A stretch of DNA of 64,000 bases from positions 1 through 64,000 of the forward strand of contig JAFEBL010000001.1 of the NCBI GenBank assembly GCA_018242665.1, given 5' to 3'. The notes under the pieces were generated by a model. The model worked only from the letters and a program-made list of their open reading frames with translations. It was not told the origin of the DNA and did not search any database. Source of the DNA: Nitrospira sp. (GTDB taxonomy: Bacteria > Nitrospirota > Nitrospiria > Nitrospirales > Nitrospiraceae). Below are positions 35,693 through 40,034 of the stretch, piece by piece. Positions within the stretch are counted from its first letter, which is position 1. Every line of letters begins with the position of its first letter. Both the position numbers and the translations under genes were made by a program.

Positions 35693-36241
35693 TTACATCG
35701 CTCCTGCGCCACCCCCGGGTGCGGAGGCCAAGAGCTTCTCGACTTCCTGCATGATAACCTCTGCGCCGGCCAGTTCCATATTGCCGACCCGCTGCCATCG
35801 GATCACGCCCCGTTGGTCAATCACATATACATTGGGAATGAACTTGCCCCCGCCATACAGCTTGTCAGTCGTCTTATTCGGATCAAGCAGATAGGGATAC
35901 GTCACCTTCACTGGGAATGCGCTCAAGAACTCACCCACATCTCGTTTCGAGTTTCCCGCCGAATTGATGCCGATGACGGCGACATTTTTCCCCGCGATCG
36001 CTTCCTGCACTTTTTGCAGATTGGTGCCTTGCATCATACAGGGGTCGCAGATATGAAACAGCCCCAGAACCACCACTTTTCCACGCAGCTGCTCAAGGGC
36101 GACAGCGTCCCCGGTGATGGACGTCAACGCGAACGCAGGGGCAGGTTCCCCGACTTTGAAAAACCCAGCAGCAAACACCGAGTGGAAGGCCCACAACGGG
36201 ACCAATGCCATCGCCAGGGCAAACAATATACGTTTCATCAT
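35693..36241 (-). CDS. Exported TlpA/ResA-like thioredoxin-fold protein
   Basis: 182 residues with a signal peptide (about 1-24). Thioredoxin/AhpC-TSA fold with the redox pair Cys65/Cys68 in HICDPCMMQ and the cis-Pro in KFIPNVYVID. TlpA/ResA-type proteins reduce disulfides in the periplasm, often for cytochrome c maturation. A Gly-rich tail (GGGAGAM) ends it. It heads the small leftward block and lies downstream of the RiPP cluster by 186 bases. Confidence 0.82.
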   Translation of the reverse strand: MMKRILFALAMALVPLWAFHSVFAAGFFKVGEPAPAFALTSITGDAVALEQLRGKVVVLGLFHICDPCMMQGTNLQKVQEAIAGKNVAVIGINSAGNSKRDVGEFLSAFPVKVTYPYLLDPNKTTDKLYGGGKFIPNVYVIDQRGVIRWQRVGNMELAGAEVIMQEVEKLLASAPGGGAGAM

Positions 36242-36427: not shown

Positions 36428-37723
36428 TCAACCGGAGATTTGAAGCCACCGGACAATCGTTCGACGCATACGAATGGAGAGAAACGATCCAGCGACCACC
36501 CGCCGAATGGGTTTCAGACAATTCGACAGGATGCGCAATCCGGGTTGGAACCGGAACCAGGGCAAGAAATGCGTCAGCACATCCGCCTCGGCCCGGCAGA
36601 GATCTACAGCGAGCTTCCATCGCTCCCAGGCAGAATCTTTGACCATCATGTATAGCGCCTCAGCACAGCTTTCATCGATGCCATGATCAGGACTTTTTAG
36701 CAGCTGTTTGGGCATGGACCGGATAAGGAGAGGAATATCCTTCTCAGCTTCAAGTTCGTGAAGCACCACTCGCGGCAATACGGTTTCGAAGAGCTCCTGA
36801 GCTAAGCCCAATCCAAGCAGGAGGATACGCCGACATCCCCACTCCTCTGCTTGGAACAAGACCCGACTCCAGTCCAATGCTGGGCGACGCCGTACGAGTT
36901 CAGCCACATCACAGATCCATTTGAGCTGCTCCCAGGCATGTTTGGTTCCATGGACGCACAGCAGAATCAAGAGGTCTTCAGGCGCTAACCCCATCACCGA
37001 CTTTGCTGGTAGCCTCACCGGCTTTAGTCGCCCATAAAACTCAATCCGATCAAGCCTGAACCCAAAATGGCGTCGGGCCATCATCCACTGCAGATCAACC
37101 GCCACAATCCCGTTTCTTTTCTGGAAGAAGTGATAGGGTTCCTCCGACTCCGCGCCCTTGTCTGTATCCCGGCTGGTCAGCTGATAGCCTTGAGACCACA
37201 ACACTTTTCTCGCCTGAGGGATCGCCTCTTGCTCAACAATTAAATCAATGTCTGCACACTCGCGGAGGGTGAGATCACCATACGCCGCCTGTGCGAGTGT
37301 CACGCCCTTGAAGGGAATCGCCTTGATGCCTTTGGCCGTCAAGGCATCAACGAGCATCACCAGTTCCCTGGCAAGCAGCGTGTTCAGTAGCACATTCGCC
37401 TGATTGTGCCGGCGAAACGCTTCATGAATTGCTGATGGCATCGCCTTCGGACAAATCGCAAGTAGGTTGCGGTACACTAACGGAGTCACACCATGGGCTC
37501 TTGAAAGCTGCCAGACCACCTCCCAATCGACGCCATCAGAGACCAAGTCTTCTACCTCGACACGCGCAAACTCACTCACAACTGTTCGCGCACAGAGGAT
37601 GAGCAACCGTCCCTCAGTATGCATCCGAGACAACCCAATCGACTGGTCGCTTCCCTTGCGAGAACCGGCTCCGACCAGAAACGATCTCCATCCAAGAGAT
37701 GCAGATTCCGATTGCTGTCCCAT
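36428..37723 (-). CDS. NTP_transf_5-type nucleotidyltransferase of the RiPP cluster
   Basis: 431 residues. The nucleotidyltransferase core is marked by IKAIPFKGVTLAQAAYGD followed by LRECADIDLIVE, the family G-(x)n-D-x-D arrangement. Relatives occur in lasso-peptide clusters that also carry an HprK-like kinase, where one has been reported to extend a kinase-made phosphate. Here it lies one base after the kinase gene, so the two are co-translated and probably act on the same peptide. The C-terminus is basic and helical. Its exact donor substrate cannot be read. Confidence 0.8.
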   Translation of the reverse strand: MGQQSESASLGWRSFLVGAGSRKGSDQSIGLSRMHTEGRLLILCARTVVSEFARVEVEDLVSDGVDWEVVWQLSRAHGVTPLVYRNLLAICPKAMPSAIHEAFRRHNQANVLLNTLLARELVMLVDALTAKGIKAIPFKGVTLAQAAYGDLTLRECADIDLIVEQEAIPQARKVLWSQGYQLTSRDTDKGAESEEPYHFFQKRNGIVAVDLQWMMARRHFGFRLDRIEFYGRLKPVRLPAKSVMGLAPEDLLILLCVHGTKHAWEQLKWICDVAELVRRRPALDWSRVLFQAEEWGCRRILLLGLGLAQELFETVLPRVVLHELEAEKDIPLLIRSMPKQLLKSPDHGIDESCAEALYMMVKDSAWERWKLAVDLCRAEADVLTHFLPWFRFQPGLRILSNCLKPIRRVVAGSFLSIRMRRTIVRWLQISG

Positions 37724-37724
37724 C

Positions 37725-38765
37725 TCAGCTTGCCCTCTTCGCTGACCGTTTGTTCAAAAGAGGAGTCACGAGCCACGGCAAATCCACGACGTCGCGACCA
37801 AAGTGCAACCGATAGCAATCGGTTTGCTGGATCAGTCGCGTCAATGCTTTGAACTCCTCCCGGGCGACCTCCGGTTCATACACAAGCAGCGAATGCGGAA
37901 GAATCATCTCTAGGGCCACCTTTTTCGAGAGCGGCTCCAGACAGCTATAGGGAGCATCCATGACTGCGGGGAATAAAATGAGGGTAGGCGCACAAGACTG
38001 GCCGATTGATTGGGGGTAGAGATCTTCCGCATAGAATGAACGTTTTGGAGATCCTGCACGGAGGACAGAAGACGGCGCCTGTTGAAGTTCAGGAAAGAAG
38101 GAGATAGTTTGATCGGTGACATTGATCTTCAGAGGATAGGACAGAAGTTCGACGCCACTATTGGTGACCCGAAAGAATGGATGGTCGTCCGAGAGGTATC
38201 TGTAGCCGGAGCGCAGCAATGAGAGGAATGACGTGGTTTTTCCCCGCCCGCTGAATCCAGGAATCAACACGCCATTCCCCTGGTACTCGAGAGCCGTGGC
38301 GTGGAAGGTAAACATGCCACGGCGCTTCAGCAATTCAGTCATGGCAAAATGCACGAAACTATTCCGAGTATCCGGCTCCATTTCCTCTGGCCGTACAAGA
38401 TACCCGCGGGCCGAAAAGGTTCGACTATCAATGGCCACAAGCCCCTCATCATGAAAGTCGACGATCAACGCGCCCTGCTGCGAATAAATGTCGCATAGCC
38501 AGGTTGTTTGGCCGTCAGGGCCGGCCACGAGTCCAGATCCGCTGTGCAGCAACTGGGCTTTGCCGGAAATTCGCAGAGGAATATCACTACGTCGCGGCAC
38601 GGCATCGAACTGCATGTGCATAGACTGACCAGTTGAGGTCTTACCTCTAAAATGCCGGAGGAGCGATTCAACAGAACAGGTCAACTCGCGTGAATTCGTA
38701 GTGAATGTCATCTCCAGACCATGGATAGAAAACCGACTCTCGGTCGTCGCCGCGGTCGCGTACAT
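37725..38765 (-). CDS. HprK-like serine/threonine kinase of the RiPP cluster
   Basis: 346 residues. The C-terminal half has the HPr-kinase fold: FHATALE with the conserved His155, P-loop GFSGRGKTT (170-178) and LSDDHPFF with Asp193/Asp194. The N-terminal 130 residues differ from HprK and probably bind the substrate. In lasso clusters such kinases phosphorylate a C-terminal Ser of the precursor. The start is ATG with AAGGAG six bases upstream; a longer form begins seven codons earlier. It follows the peptide gene across a hairpin. Confidence 0.85.
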   Translation of the reverse strand: MYATAATTESRFSIHGLEMTFTTNSRELTCSVESLLRHFRGKTSTGQSMHMQFDAVPRRSDIPLRISGKAQLLHSGSGLVAGPDGQTTWLCDIYSQQGALIVDFHDEGLVAIDSRTFSARGYLVRPEEMEPDTRNSFVHFAMTELLKRRGMFTFHATALEYQGNGVLIPGFSGRGKTTSFLSLLRSGYRYLSDDHPFFRVTNSGVELLSYPLKINVTDQTISFFPELQQAPSSVLRAGSPKRSFYAEDLYPQSIGQSCAPTLILFPAVMDAPYSCLEPLSKKVALEMILPHSLLVYEPEVAREEFKALTRLIQQTDCYRLHFGRDVVDLPWLVTPLLNKRSAKRAS

Positions 38766-38818
38766 GACTCGCTCCTTATCAAACATCTATCTCGCCGAAG
38801 CGCACTCGCCACTTCATC

Positions 38819-38853
38819 GGGAACTGGCTGACCTTAGTGGGCAGCCAGTTCCC
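38819..38853 (-). promoter_or_regulatory. Perfect 12-base hairpin between peptide and kinase genes
   Basis: Arms GGGAACTGGCTG (38819-38830) and CAGCCAGTTCCC (38842-38853), 11-base loop, no T-run. Placed right after the peptide gene, it may protect the upstream mRNA or partly stop transcription so that more peptide than enzyme is made, as in other RiPP operons. Confidence 0.7.
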
Positions 38854-38876
38854 GACATGGGCCGACGAGCCGTCTC

Positions 38877-38990
38877 TTAGGTCGCCCGTTGTTGGACGAC
38901 CCGCGACAATTGAATCGCCGTCACATCACGCAGTAACTCGTGTTTCACGAGTTGAGGCTTTACGTACTCGGCTTTTCTCTGTTGCTCCAT
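38877..38990 (-). CDS. RiPP precursor peptide, lasso-like leader
   Basis: 37 residues, too short for ordinary gene calls. The leader has Y9VKPQL14, the YxxPxL motif that PqqD-like B1 proteins bind, and Thr24 falls exactly 15 residues after Tyr9, the position of the cleavage-site Thr in lasso leaders. Cutting one residue later would release IQLSRVVQQRAT. That core has no Gly1-to-Asp/Glu pair, so no lasso ring can form, and it ends in Thr. AAAGGAGGTGA (38996-39006, minus) is a near-perfect ribosome binding site, eight bases from ATG and overlapping the B1 gene end. Confidence 0.8.
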   Translation of the reverse strand: MEQQRKAEYVKPQLVKHELLRDVTAIQLSRVVQQRAT

Positions 38991-38995
38991 CCGAC

Positions 38996-39301
38996 TCACC
39001 TCCTTTCAGTGTGAAGTAACCCTTCCTGACGAAGTTGGACGATCAAGTCGAGCCCGTCCGACTGCGCTTGCAGAGCTGTCACATCAAAGTACTCGGGAAT
39101 GCAGGACAGAATGTGCGCTACTGAATGGGTGCCAGTGCACCGTTCCCACACAAACGCACCAACAGCATTGAGGGTGTAATAACGGCCGGTGATCAGGTGG
39201 AGTAGCACGCATTCCCCATCAAGAACCGTCCCCTGCACATCTTCGTGCCGAACAGGAAATAGTCGAACTAAATCGATTACAGGCTCTACGCACAGCGCCA
39301 T
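38996..39301 (-). CDS. PqqD-like peptide-recognition protein (lasso B1 type)
   Basis: 101 residues, the usual size. The winged-helix fold of PqqD/RRE proteins is seen in VLLHLITGRYYTLNAVGAFVWE and the C-terminal helices (LDLIVQLRQEGLLH). In lasso systems B1 binds the precursor leader and presents it to the B2 peptidase. GGAGG six bases upstream supports the ATG. It lies between the B2 gene and the precursor gene, and the precursor's ribosome binding site overlaps its stop. Confidence 0.88.
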   Translation of the reverse strand: MALCVEPVIDLVRLFPVRHEDVQGTVLDGECVLLHLITGRYYTLNAVGAFVWERCTGTHSVAHILSCIPEYFDVTALQAQSDGLDLIVQLRQEGLLHTERR

Positions 39302-39599
39302 CGTGCACCTCCAGGGGCTAAGAACTCAGTGCAAAATCAACCTTCTCGAACACGGCCGCCGATTCATTCACATCCGTTGAGCCTGTTAGAAACTCTGAGA
39401 AGCGCTCCGGTGAATGCAAAAATAGCCGTCCCCTCGCCTGTTCTCTATTACCAGTGAGAGTGGCTCGATAGAGTCTTTTGGGGGGAGACGACCGGTATCG
39501 TGGAGAACAACCGATGAACAAGATCCGGCTACCATCAGCCTGCGATGCGCGATACAGGATGCCAACCAGCAGAGTTGGATGGGAACTGCGGCCCGGGGG
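39302..39599 (-). other. Gap between B2 and B1 with an open frame of unclear status
   Basis: Right after the B2 stop TAG (39600-39602) the same frame stays open for about 90 codons to 39318. The only start candidates are a TTG at 39521 (67 residues) with no good ribosome binding site. The translation (for example LYRATLTGNREQARGRLFLH) is not recognised. It may be a decayed gene, an unusual small protein or simply open by chance. Confidence 0.3.
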
Positions 39600-40034
39600 C
39601 TACGGAACTCGGCGATCGGGAGGCACGGCGCGTGGAGGGAATGTAAGGGTTACGGTAAAGTCCTTCCAGTAAGAAGAAGGTTCAAGAAAGACACGCCCAT
39701 TCAGCATTAACCAGGCATGCCCTTCGAGACGCTGATCAAGCTTCATGACGCCGCAATTGAATTGGACAGGCATCCCCGCGCGGCAGGCATAAAAGAACAG
39801 GGTGAGCGCGCGCGGAAAACAATTTCCTTTTGGATGATAAGGAAAAATCGAAAGCCAGCGATCTAGATAGTAGGCCAGGTCGTCGATGCCATGATCTTTG
39901 GCGCATCCAACCACTGGGTTGCAGGACAACCACTGCAGTGTCCGCTTGAGACTGACCAGACGCAACGCCACCCGCACCCCACACAGGACAAGGCCGATGC
40001 TGAGGACCAACCAGTATTTCCTGAGTGACGACAT
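39600..40034 (-). CDS. Lasso B2-type transglutaminase-like leader peptidase
   Basis: 144 residues, normal for B2. A hydrophobic N-terminal helix (8-20) is followed by the cysteine-protease fold. Cys72 (GNCFPRALTLFFY) and His106 (LEGHAWLMLNG) are in place; the third residue is Glu118, where McjB has Asp at the same 12-residue spacing from His. It should cut the leader from the precursor at 38877-38990. It is the first gene of the cluster and follows purF by 62 bases in the same direction, so it may share the purine operon transcript. Confidence 0.85.
   Translation of the reverse strand: MSSLRKYWLVLSIGLVLCGVRVALRLVSLKRTLQWLSCNPVVGCAKDHGIDDLAYYLDRWLSIFPYHPKGNCFPRALTLFFYACRAGMPVQFNCGVMKLDQRLEGHAWLMLNGRVFLEPSSYWKDFTVTLTFPPRAVPPDRRVP

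Follow-up and report, generated by a model that had tools for sequence, protein, structure and literature searches.

A conserved lasso-like RiPP gene cluster without a lasso cyclase in Nitrospira

A 64,000-nt stretch of a Nitrospira genome (herein the window) contains five leftward genes for a B2 leader peptidase, a B1 recognition element, a short precursor peptide, a predicted HprK-like kinase and a nucleotidyltransferase-fold protein. The original prediction described this locus as a lasso-like RiPP cluster without a lasso cyclase. That description stands, since no dedicated cyclase was found and the peptide is conserved. Two features that define a lasso cluster are lacking, the cyclase and a core with Gly1 and an Asp or Glu at positions 7 to 9, so it does not count as one. 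The gene set and the core make a short, linear and modified peptide its probable product.

Results

Gene content of the locus

All five predicted genes are present, as established by domain searches and, for the kinase, by its motif. With purF as the neighbor on the B2 side, the locus reads leftward as follows.

39600..40034, minus strand: B2, leader peptidase (transglutaminase-like cysteine protease); PF13471 (Transglut_core3) 8.8e-17, NF033537
39441..39489, minus strand: conserved noncoding element in the B2-B1 gap, CCCCCAAAAG ... CTCACTGGTAATAGAGAA; genus alignment
38996..39301, minus strand: B1, PqqD-like RiPP recognition element; PF05402 1.8e-16, alignable with true lasso B1
38877..38990, minus strand: precursor peptide, 37 aa, leader MEQQRKAEYVKPQLVKHELLRDVTA and core IQLSRVVQQRAT; conservation, dN/dS
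38817..38855, minus strand: intercistronic hairpin, 14-bp stem, in the precursor-kinase gap; folding, compensatory changes
37725..38765 (ORF open from 38786), minus strand: predicted HprK/PEPCK-fold peptide kinase; HprK matches, motif, model fold
36428..37723, minus strand: NTP_transf_5 nucleotidyltransferase-fold protein (NTase; PsmN/BsfN-like role proposed); PF14907 7.8e-67, NTase fold
35693-36241: redoxin gene, after the NTP_transf_5 gene

Domain searches firmly identify B2, B1 and the NTase, whereas the kinase scores weakly in Pfam and NCBIfam. Lasso features at the locus include the B1 recognition element and the B2 transglutaminase-like protease, which scores 45.2 bits against the NCBIfam model lasso_biosyn_B2 (NF033537; cut-off 33). 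The Cys and His of B2 are kept in the alignment across orthologues and true lasso B2 proteins. McjB has an Asp at position 12 after the His of the B2-type protease; the residue at this position is Glu in most rows of the alignment. For the precursor, ATG 38990, which has AGGAGG ahead of it, is a more probable start than GTG 38999; the most likely kinase start is ATG 38765, with AAGGAG 6 nt upstream.

The kinase matches Hpr_kinase_C (1.2e-4) and HprK_rel_A (3.8e-14), both under cut-off, and reaches 52.5 bits of the curated 200 for HprK-related kinase A (TIGR04352). It carries the full lasso-kinase motif (H162, G177, G180, G182, K183, T184, D200 and D201 in ORF numbering) spaced as in the BsfK motif H-G-G-G-K-S/T-D-D (PMC10368454), and its structure model matches the PEPCK/HprK fold. 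A kinase search of 175 Nitrospiraceae genomes gave matches in 85, about 75 of them strong. Homologues were also seen in metagenome-assembled genomes (MAGs) labeled Chloroflexi (L165, with an ATP-grasp pair and B1) and Nitrospinota (L147), by transfer or on mis-binned contigs.

The structure model of the NTase has a nucleotidyltransferase fold that best matches MenT1 (Z 12.7, rmsd 2.9, 177 aligned), with further matches to ANT(2'')-Ia and FKRP; the modeled resemblance to MenT1 and ANT(2'')-Ia speaks to the fold, not to the substrate. A sequence search returned no useful solved homologue of either the NTase or B2.

The precursor is conserved and under selection

The precursor was found in 20 of 29 genus genomes (E 1e-9 or better) and coincides with a full kinase match: 20 genomes have both, 8 have neither intact and 1 fragmented assembly holds only a piece of the kinase (Fisher p 2e-6 over the 29 genomes, uncorrected for relatedness). 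The possibility raised with the original prediction, that the peptide gene is not conserved in homologous clusters, turned out the opposite way, the precursor being conserved and lost jointly with the kinase. The suggested search for the five-gene order in other Nitrospira genomes recovered it: the complete array purL, purF, B2, B1, one or two precursors, kinase, NTase and redoxin occurs at 16 other genus loci, among them that of Candidatus Nitrospira defluvii, whose genome is closed and whose core is IQLSRVLDRTPA.

Residues Y-17, P-14, L-12, H-9, E-8, R-5, D-4, V-3, T-2 and A-1 are invariant in all 25 genus copies of the precursor, each of which thereby has the lasso-leader spacing Y-17 P-14 L-12 T-2 (motif as in PMC10368454). 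Core Ser4 is likewise invariant (25/25), the core is 12 residues long in 20 of the 25 copies and its tail is variable. Averaged simply over pairs, without regard to relatedness, dN/dS comes to 0.09 in the leader, 0.16 in core positions 1 through 6 and 0.54 in the tail (positions 7 through 10). From the invariant leader residues and Ser4 and the low dN/dS, we conclude that the precursor is translated and under purifying selection, with a variable tail.

The window core IQLSRVVQQRAT has no Gly1 and no Asp or Glu at all, so a lasso ring is impossible. Among the cores of the 24 genus relatives, none combines Gly1 with an Asp or Glu at positions 7 to 9, and half have an Asp or Glu there. As a kinase target the C-terminal Ser was rejected, Ser being the last residue in just 4 of 25 copies; by its conservation, core Ser4 is the more likely target.

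Noncoding elements between the genes

The gap of ~300 bp between B2 and B1 is apparently noncoding. A cyclase remnant was considered here and dismissed: the frame in the gap has no Pfam match, and relatives have no homologous reading frame. The element at 39441-39489, upstream of B1, consists of CCCCCAAAAG followed by CTCACTGGNAATAGAGAA; it is a single site in the genome, is conserved in the genus alignment, peptide-less loci included, and has no match to an Rfam family at E up to 1. The precursor-kinase hairpin (14 bp, without a T run) is present in every genus locus that was folded and shows two-sided compensatory changes at 8 of 10 consensus pairs; it probably keeps precursor output above enzyme output.

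The NTase outlasts the rest of the cluster

Three genus genomes (G023, G031 and G040) keep B1 and the NTase and have lost B2, precursor and kinase, two (G029 and G043) have the NTase as sole remnant and three (G036, G038 and G030) hold fragments of the cluster. At six loci (L099-L104; G023, G029, G031, G036, G040 and G043) the NTase is intact between purF and redoxin without an intact kinase, precursor or B2. Its dN/dS is 0.16-0.29 among genus genomes from which kinase, B2 and peptide have disappeared, indicating purifying selection, and most peptide-less genomes have changes in its catalytic motif (FKG to FRG or FHG, DID to DIE). As it persists in genomes without the peptide, the NTase is perhaps not dedicated to capping, and this pattern of retention suggests that it may have a second, separate role.

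No dedicated cyclase found in the genome or the genus

A lasso cyclase was detected neither in the window nor in the whole 4.06-Mb genome (G000). A whole-genome search for a dedicated AsnB-like enzyme, as proposed with the original prediction, returned two full AsnB-like proteins, and the best match to the lasso-cyclase model NF033535 scored 272 bits, short of the 525-bit cut-off. Both proteins start with MCG (the glutaminase cysteine), and their genes sit among glycosyltransferase and polysaccharide-type genes, with neighbors named by eye from sequence. In a comparison by score, NF033535 gives similar values for genus genomes that have the cluster and for those that lack it; no genus genome, including closed ones such as that of N. 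defluvii, exceeds the cut-off. None of the AsnB-like matches listed for the genus lies at the purF locus. Within the examined cluster loci there is likewise no AsnB-like cyclase, except that the L069 locus has an AsnB-like gene ~4 kb from B1, adjoining glycosyltransferase-type genes.

True lasso clusters do exist in several other genera of the Nitrospiraceae (L116-L125) and serve as an internal control, of which the window cluster is not one. Kinase and NTase matches occur in most of them, and several bring together B1, B2, cyclase, kinase and NTase. Their precursors are of the type KKPYxTPxLVEYGxIAKLTQG, and their kinases share 25-38% identity with the window kinase over matched stretches.

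Related units in the family

Other genera have a type I unit, B1-precursor-kinase-NTase-B2-ABC, without cyclase or ATP-grasp (L064, L065, L067, L072 and several more). Beside it or in its place, some of them have a type II set that comprises two ATP-grasp proteins, B1, precursors, kinase, a fatty-acid-hydroxylase-family gene and the NTase (L055, L056, L058, L060, L061, L062, L063 and L066). One ATP-grasp protein of the pair is RimK-like; the other has no Pfam match, so that its assignment rests on resemblance and gene pairing. Type II clusters encode several precursors, QKYKEKTSDK being one example of a core, and possibly represent a graspetide-like branch on a lasso-type leader.

Precursors of both types share the leader YxxPx(L/V/M/I)xxHxxLRD(I/V)T, with Cys for Tyr in one copy. 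Ser3 is found in all 18 other-genus precursors with a leader terminating in TA or TT, and 12 of the remaining 16 have K-Y at core positions 2-3; overall, Ser3 is missing from 12 of 34 and one core has neither Ser nor Thr. The cluster lies beside purF in several genera, and among the matches listed, those with names are almost all Nitrospira or Nitrospirota MAGs. The RimK-like ATP-grasp protein of type II has no match in the window genome. A dedicated exporter was not found there either, the type I ABC protein finding ~30% identity at best, and the purF-redoxin loci of the genus contain no exporter gene.

Discussion

Comparison with known systems

The original prediction likened the locus to the kinase-bearing lasso layout of paeninodin. 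Among described layouts, that of the bsf genes comes nearer than paeninodin. The bsf lasso cluster of Bradymonas sediminis comprises A, B1, B2, C, D, K and N, and BsfK phosphorylates BsfA at Ser3 with the aid of BsfB1 (PMC10368454). Shared with bsf are the split B1 and B2, the kinase motif and its spacing, the nucleotidyltransferase, the leader YxxPxL at -17 to -12 (PMC10368454) and a kinase-target Ser near the N terminus of the core (Ser3 in bsf, Ser4 proposed in the window). Unlike bsf, the window cluster lacks cyclase C, transporter D, Gly1 and Asp8, and its penultimate leader residue is Thr rather than Ile.

As far as the published descriptions go, the pseudomycoidin (psm) system likewise has a kinase and a nucleotidyltransferase, with a hexose on the phosphate (PMC9266682, PMC8498205), but its product is a lasso phosphorylated on a C-terminal Ser, a residue that is unconserved in the window genus. 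In that account, true nucleotidyl transfer by PsmN followed by host glycosylation is not excluded (PMC9266682); our NTase, placed by NTP_transf_5 family and fold, is compared with PsmN by description only. Paeninodin (pade), on the same footing, offers B1-dependent leader cutting by B2 and an HprK-like kinase, whereas it has a cyclase, a lasso product and a kinase specific for the C-terminal Ser (PMC5067487, PMC8498205). The likeness to graspetide-type clusters lies in the two ATP-grasp genes, which occur only in type II clusters of other Nitrospiraceae genera; the window cluster has no ATP-grasp gene. We found neither a cyclase-free lasso-type cluster nor a Nitrospira-specific description in the open-licence literature.

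Proposed pathway and alternatives

On balance we favor a cyclase-free derivative of the bsf/pseudomycoidin-type toolbox, in which, by analogy, Ser4 of a linear 12-mer would be phosphorylated and the phosphate would possibly receive a glycosyl or nucleotidyl group. The gene set suggests a course like that of the lasso K/N branch that stops short of cyclization. Going by the leader motif, B1 would bind the leader through Y-17, P-14 and L-12. With the precursor bound to B1, the kinase would phosphorylate core Ser4, in the way that BsfK modifies Ser3 of BsfA. B2 would then cut after A-1 to free IQLSRVVQQRAT. The calculated [M+H]+ is 1398.818 for this core, 1478.784 for its phosphorylated form and 1640.837 for the form with phosphate and hexose. 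In the weakest step of the scheme, the phosphate may receive a hexose or nucleotide from the NTP_transf_5 protein, with PsmN as the precedent. Because the cyclase is missing and the core is free of acidic residues, the peptide would stay linear, and since no dedicated exporter was found, it would act in the cell or leave by a general transporter. Several findings weigh against this scheme: selection maintains the NTase where kinase, B2 and peptide are lost, 12 of 34 other-genus precursors lack Ser3 and the kinase scores under the NCBIfam cut-offs.

A decaying lasso cluster, its cyclase lost and its other genes relics, would account for the genus genomes that hold only fragments or the NTase and for the missing exporter within the cluster of the window genus. 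We judge this highly improbable, however: of 29 genus genomes, 20 have kept the whole cluster, its peptide is under purifying selection, the hairpin shows compensatory changes and the cyclase-free unit recurs with an exporter in other genera. The family's true lasso clusters, moreover, have another leader (YxTPxLVEYGxIAKLT) and kinases that differ from the window kinase to the extent given above. We also consider it quite unlikely that an unlinked enzyme, AsnB-like or ATP-grasp, makes a lasso or other ring, even though the genome has two AsnB-like proteins, related clusters of other genera contain ATP-grasp pairs and half of the other genus cores have an Asp or Glu at positions 7 to 9. The window core offers neither Gly1 nor an acidic residue, both AsnB proteins start with MCG amid glycosyltransferases, cluster-less genomes have a like-scoring AsnB and the RimK-like ATP-grasp protein is unmatched in this genome.

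A further reading is that the peptide, or the kinase and NTase, forms an intracellular regulator or modification system, for instance with another target, rather than yielding a secreted product. Retention of the NTase alone, its fold being closest to the MenT1 toxin, fits such a role, as do the location beside purF in several genera and the want of a dedicated exporter in the genome (best ABC match 30% identity). Other genera, by contrast, pair the same gene set with an ABC exporter, and the variability of the core tail has the look of a product exposed to changing selection; we give this reading a minor share of the probability. Returning to the phosphorylated linear peptide, we see about an even chance that it belongs to a separate RiPP class, largely of the Nitrospiraceae, in which lasso leader machinery serves a linear peptide whose phosphate, on a Ser close to the N terminus, is decorated further; a sister branch would add the ATP-grasp pair.

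Nitrospira are the main nitrite oxidizers of wastewater plants. A 2022 survey reported several RiPP clusters of unknown function in every Nitrospira genome compared (PMC9765116). Genome mining keyed to the cyclase would overlook the window cluster. If the proposed pathway is correct, its product would be a first specialized peptide to seek in Nitrospira, and leader binding, cutting, phosphorylation and decoration of the phosphate would form a module independent of the lasso cyclase.
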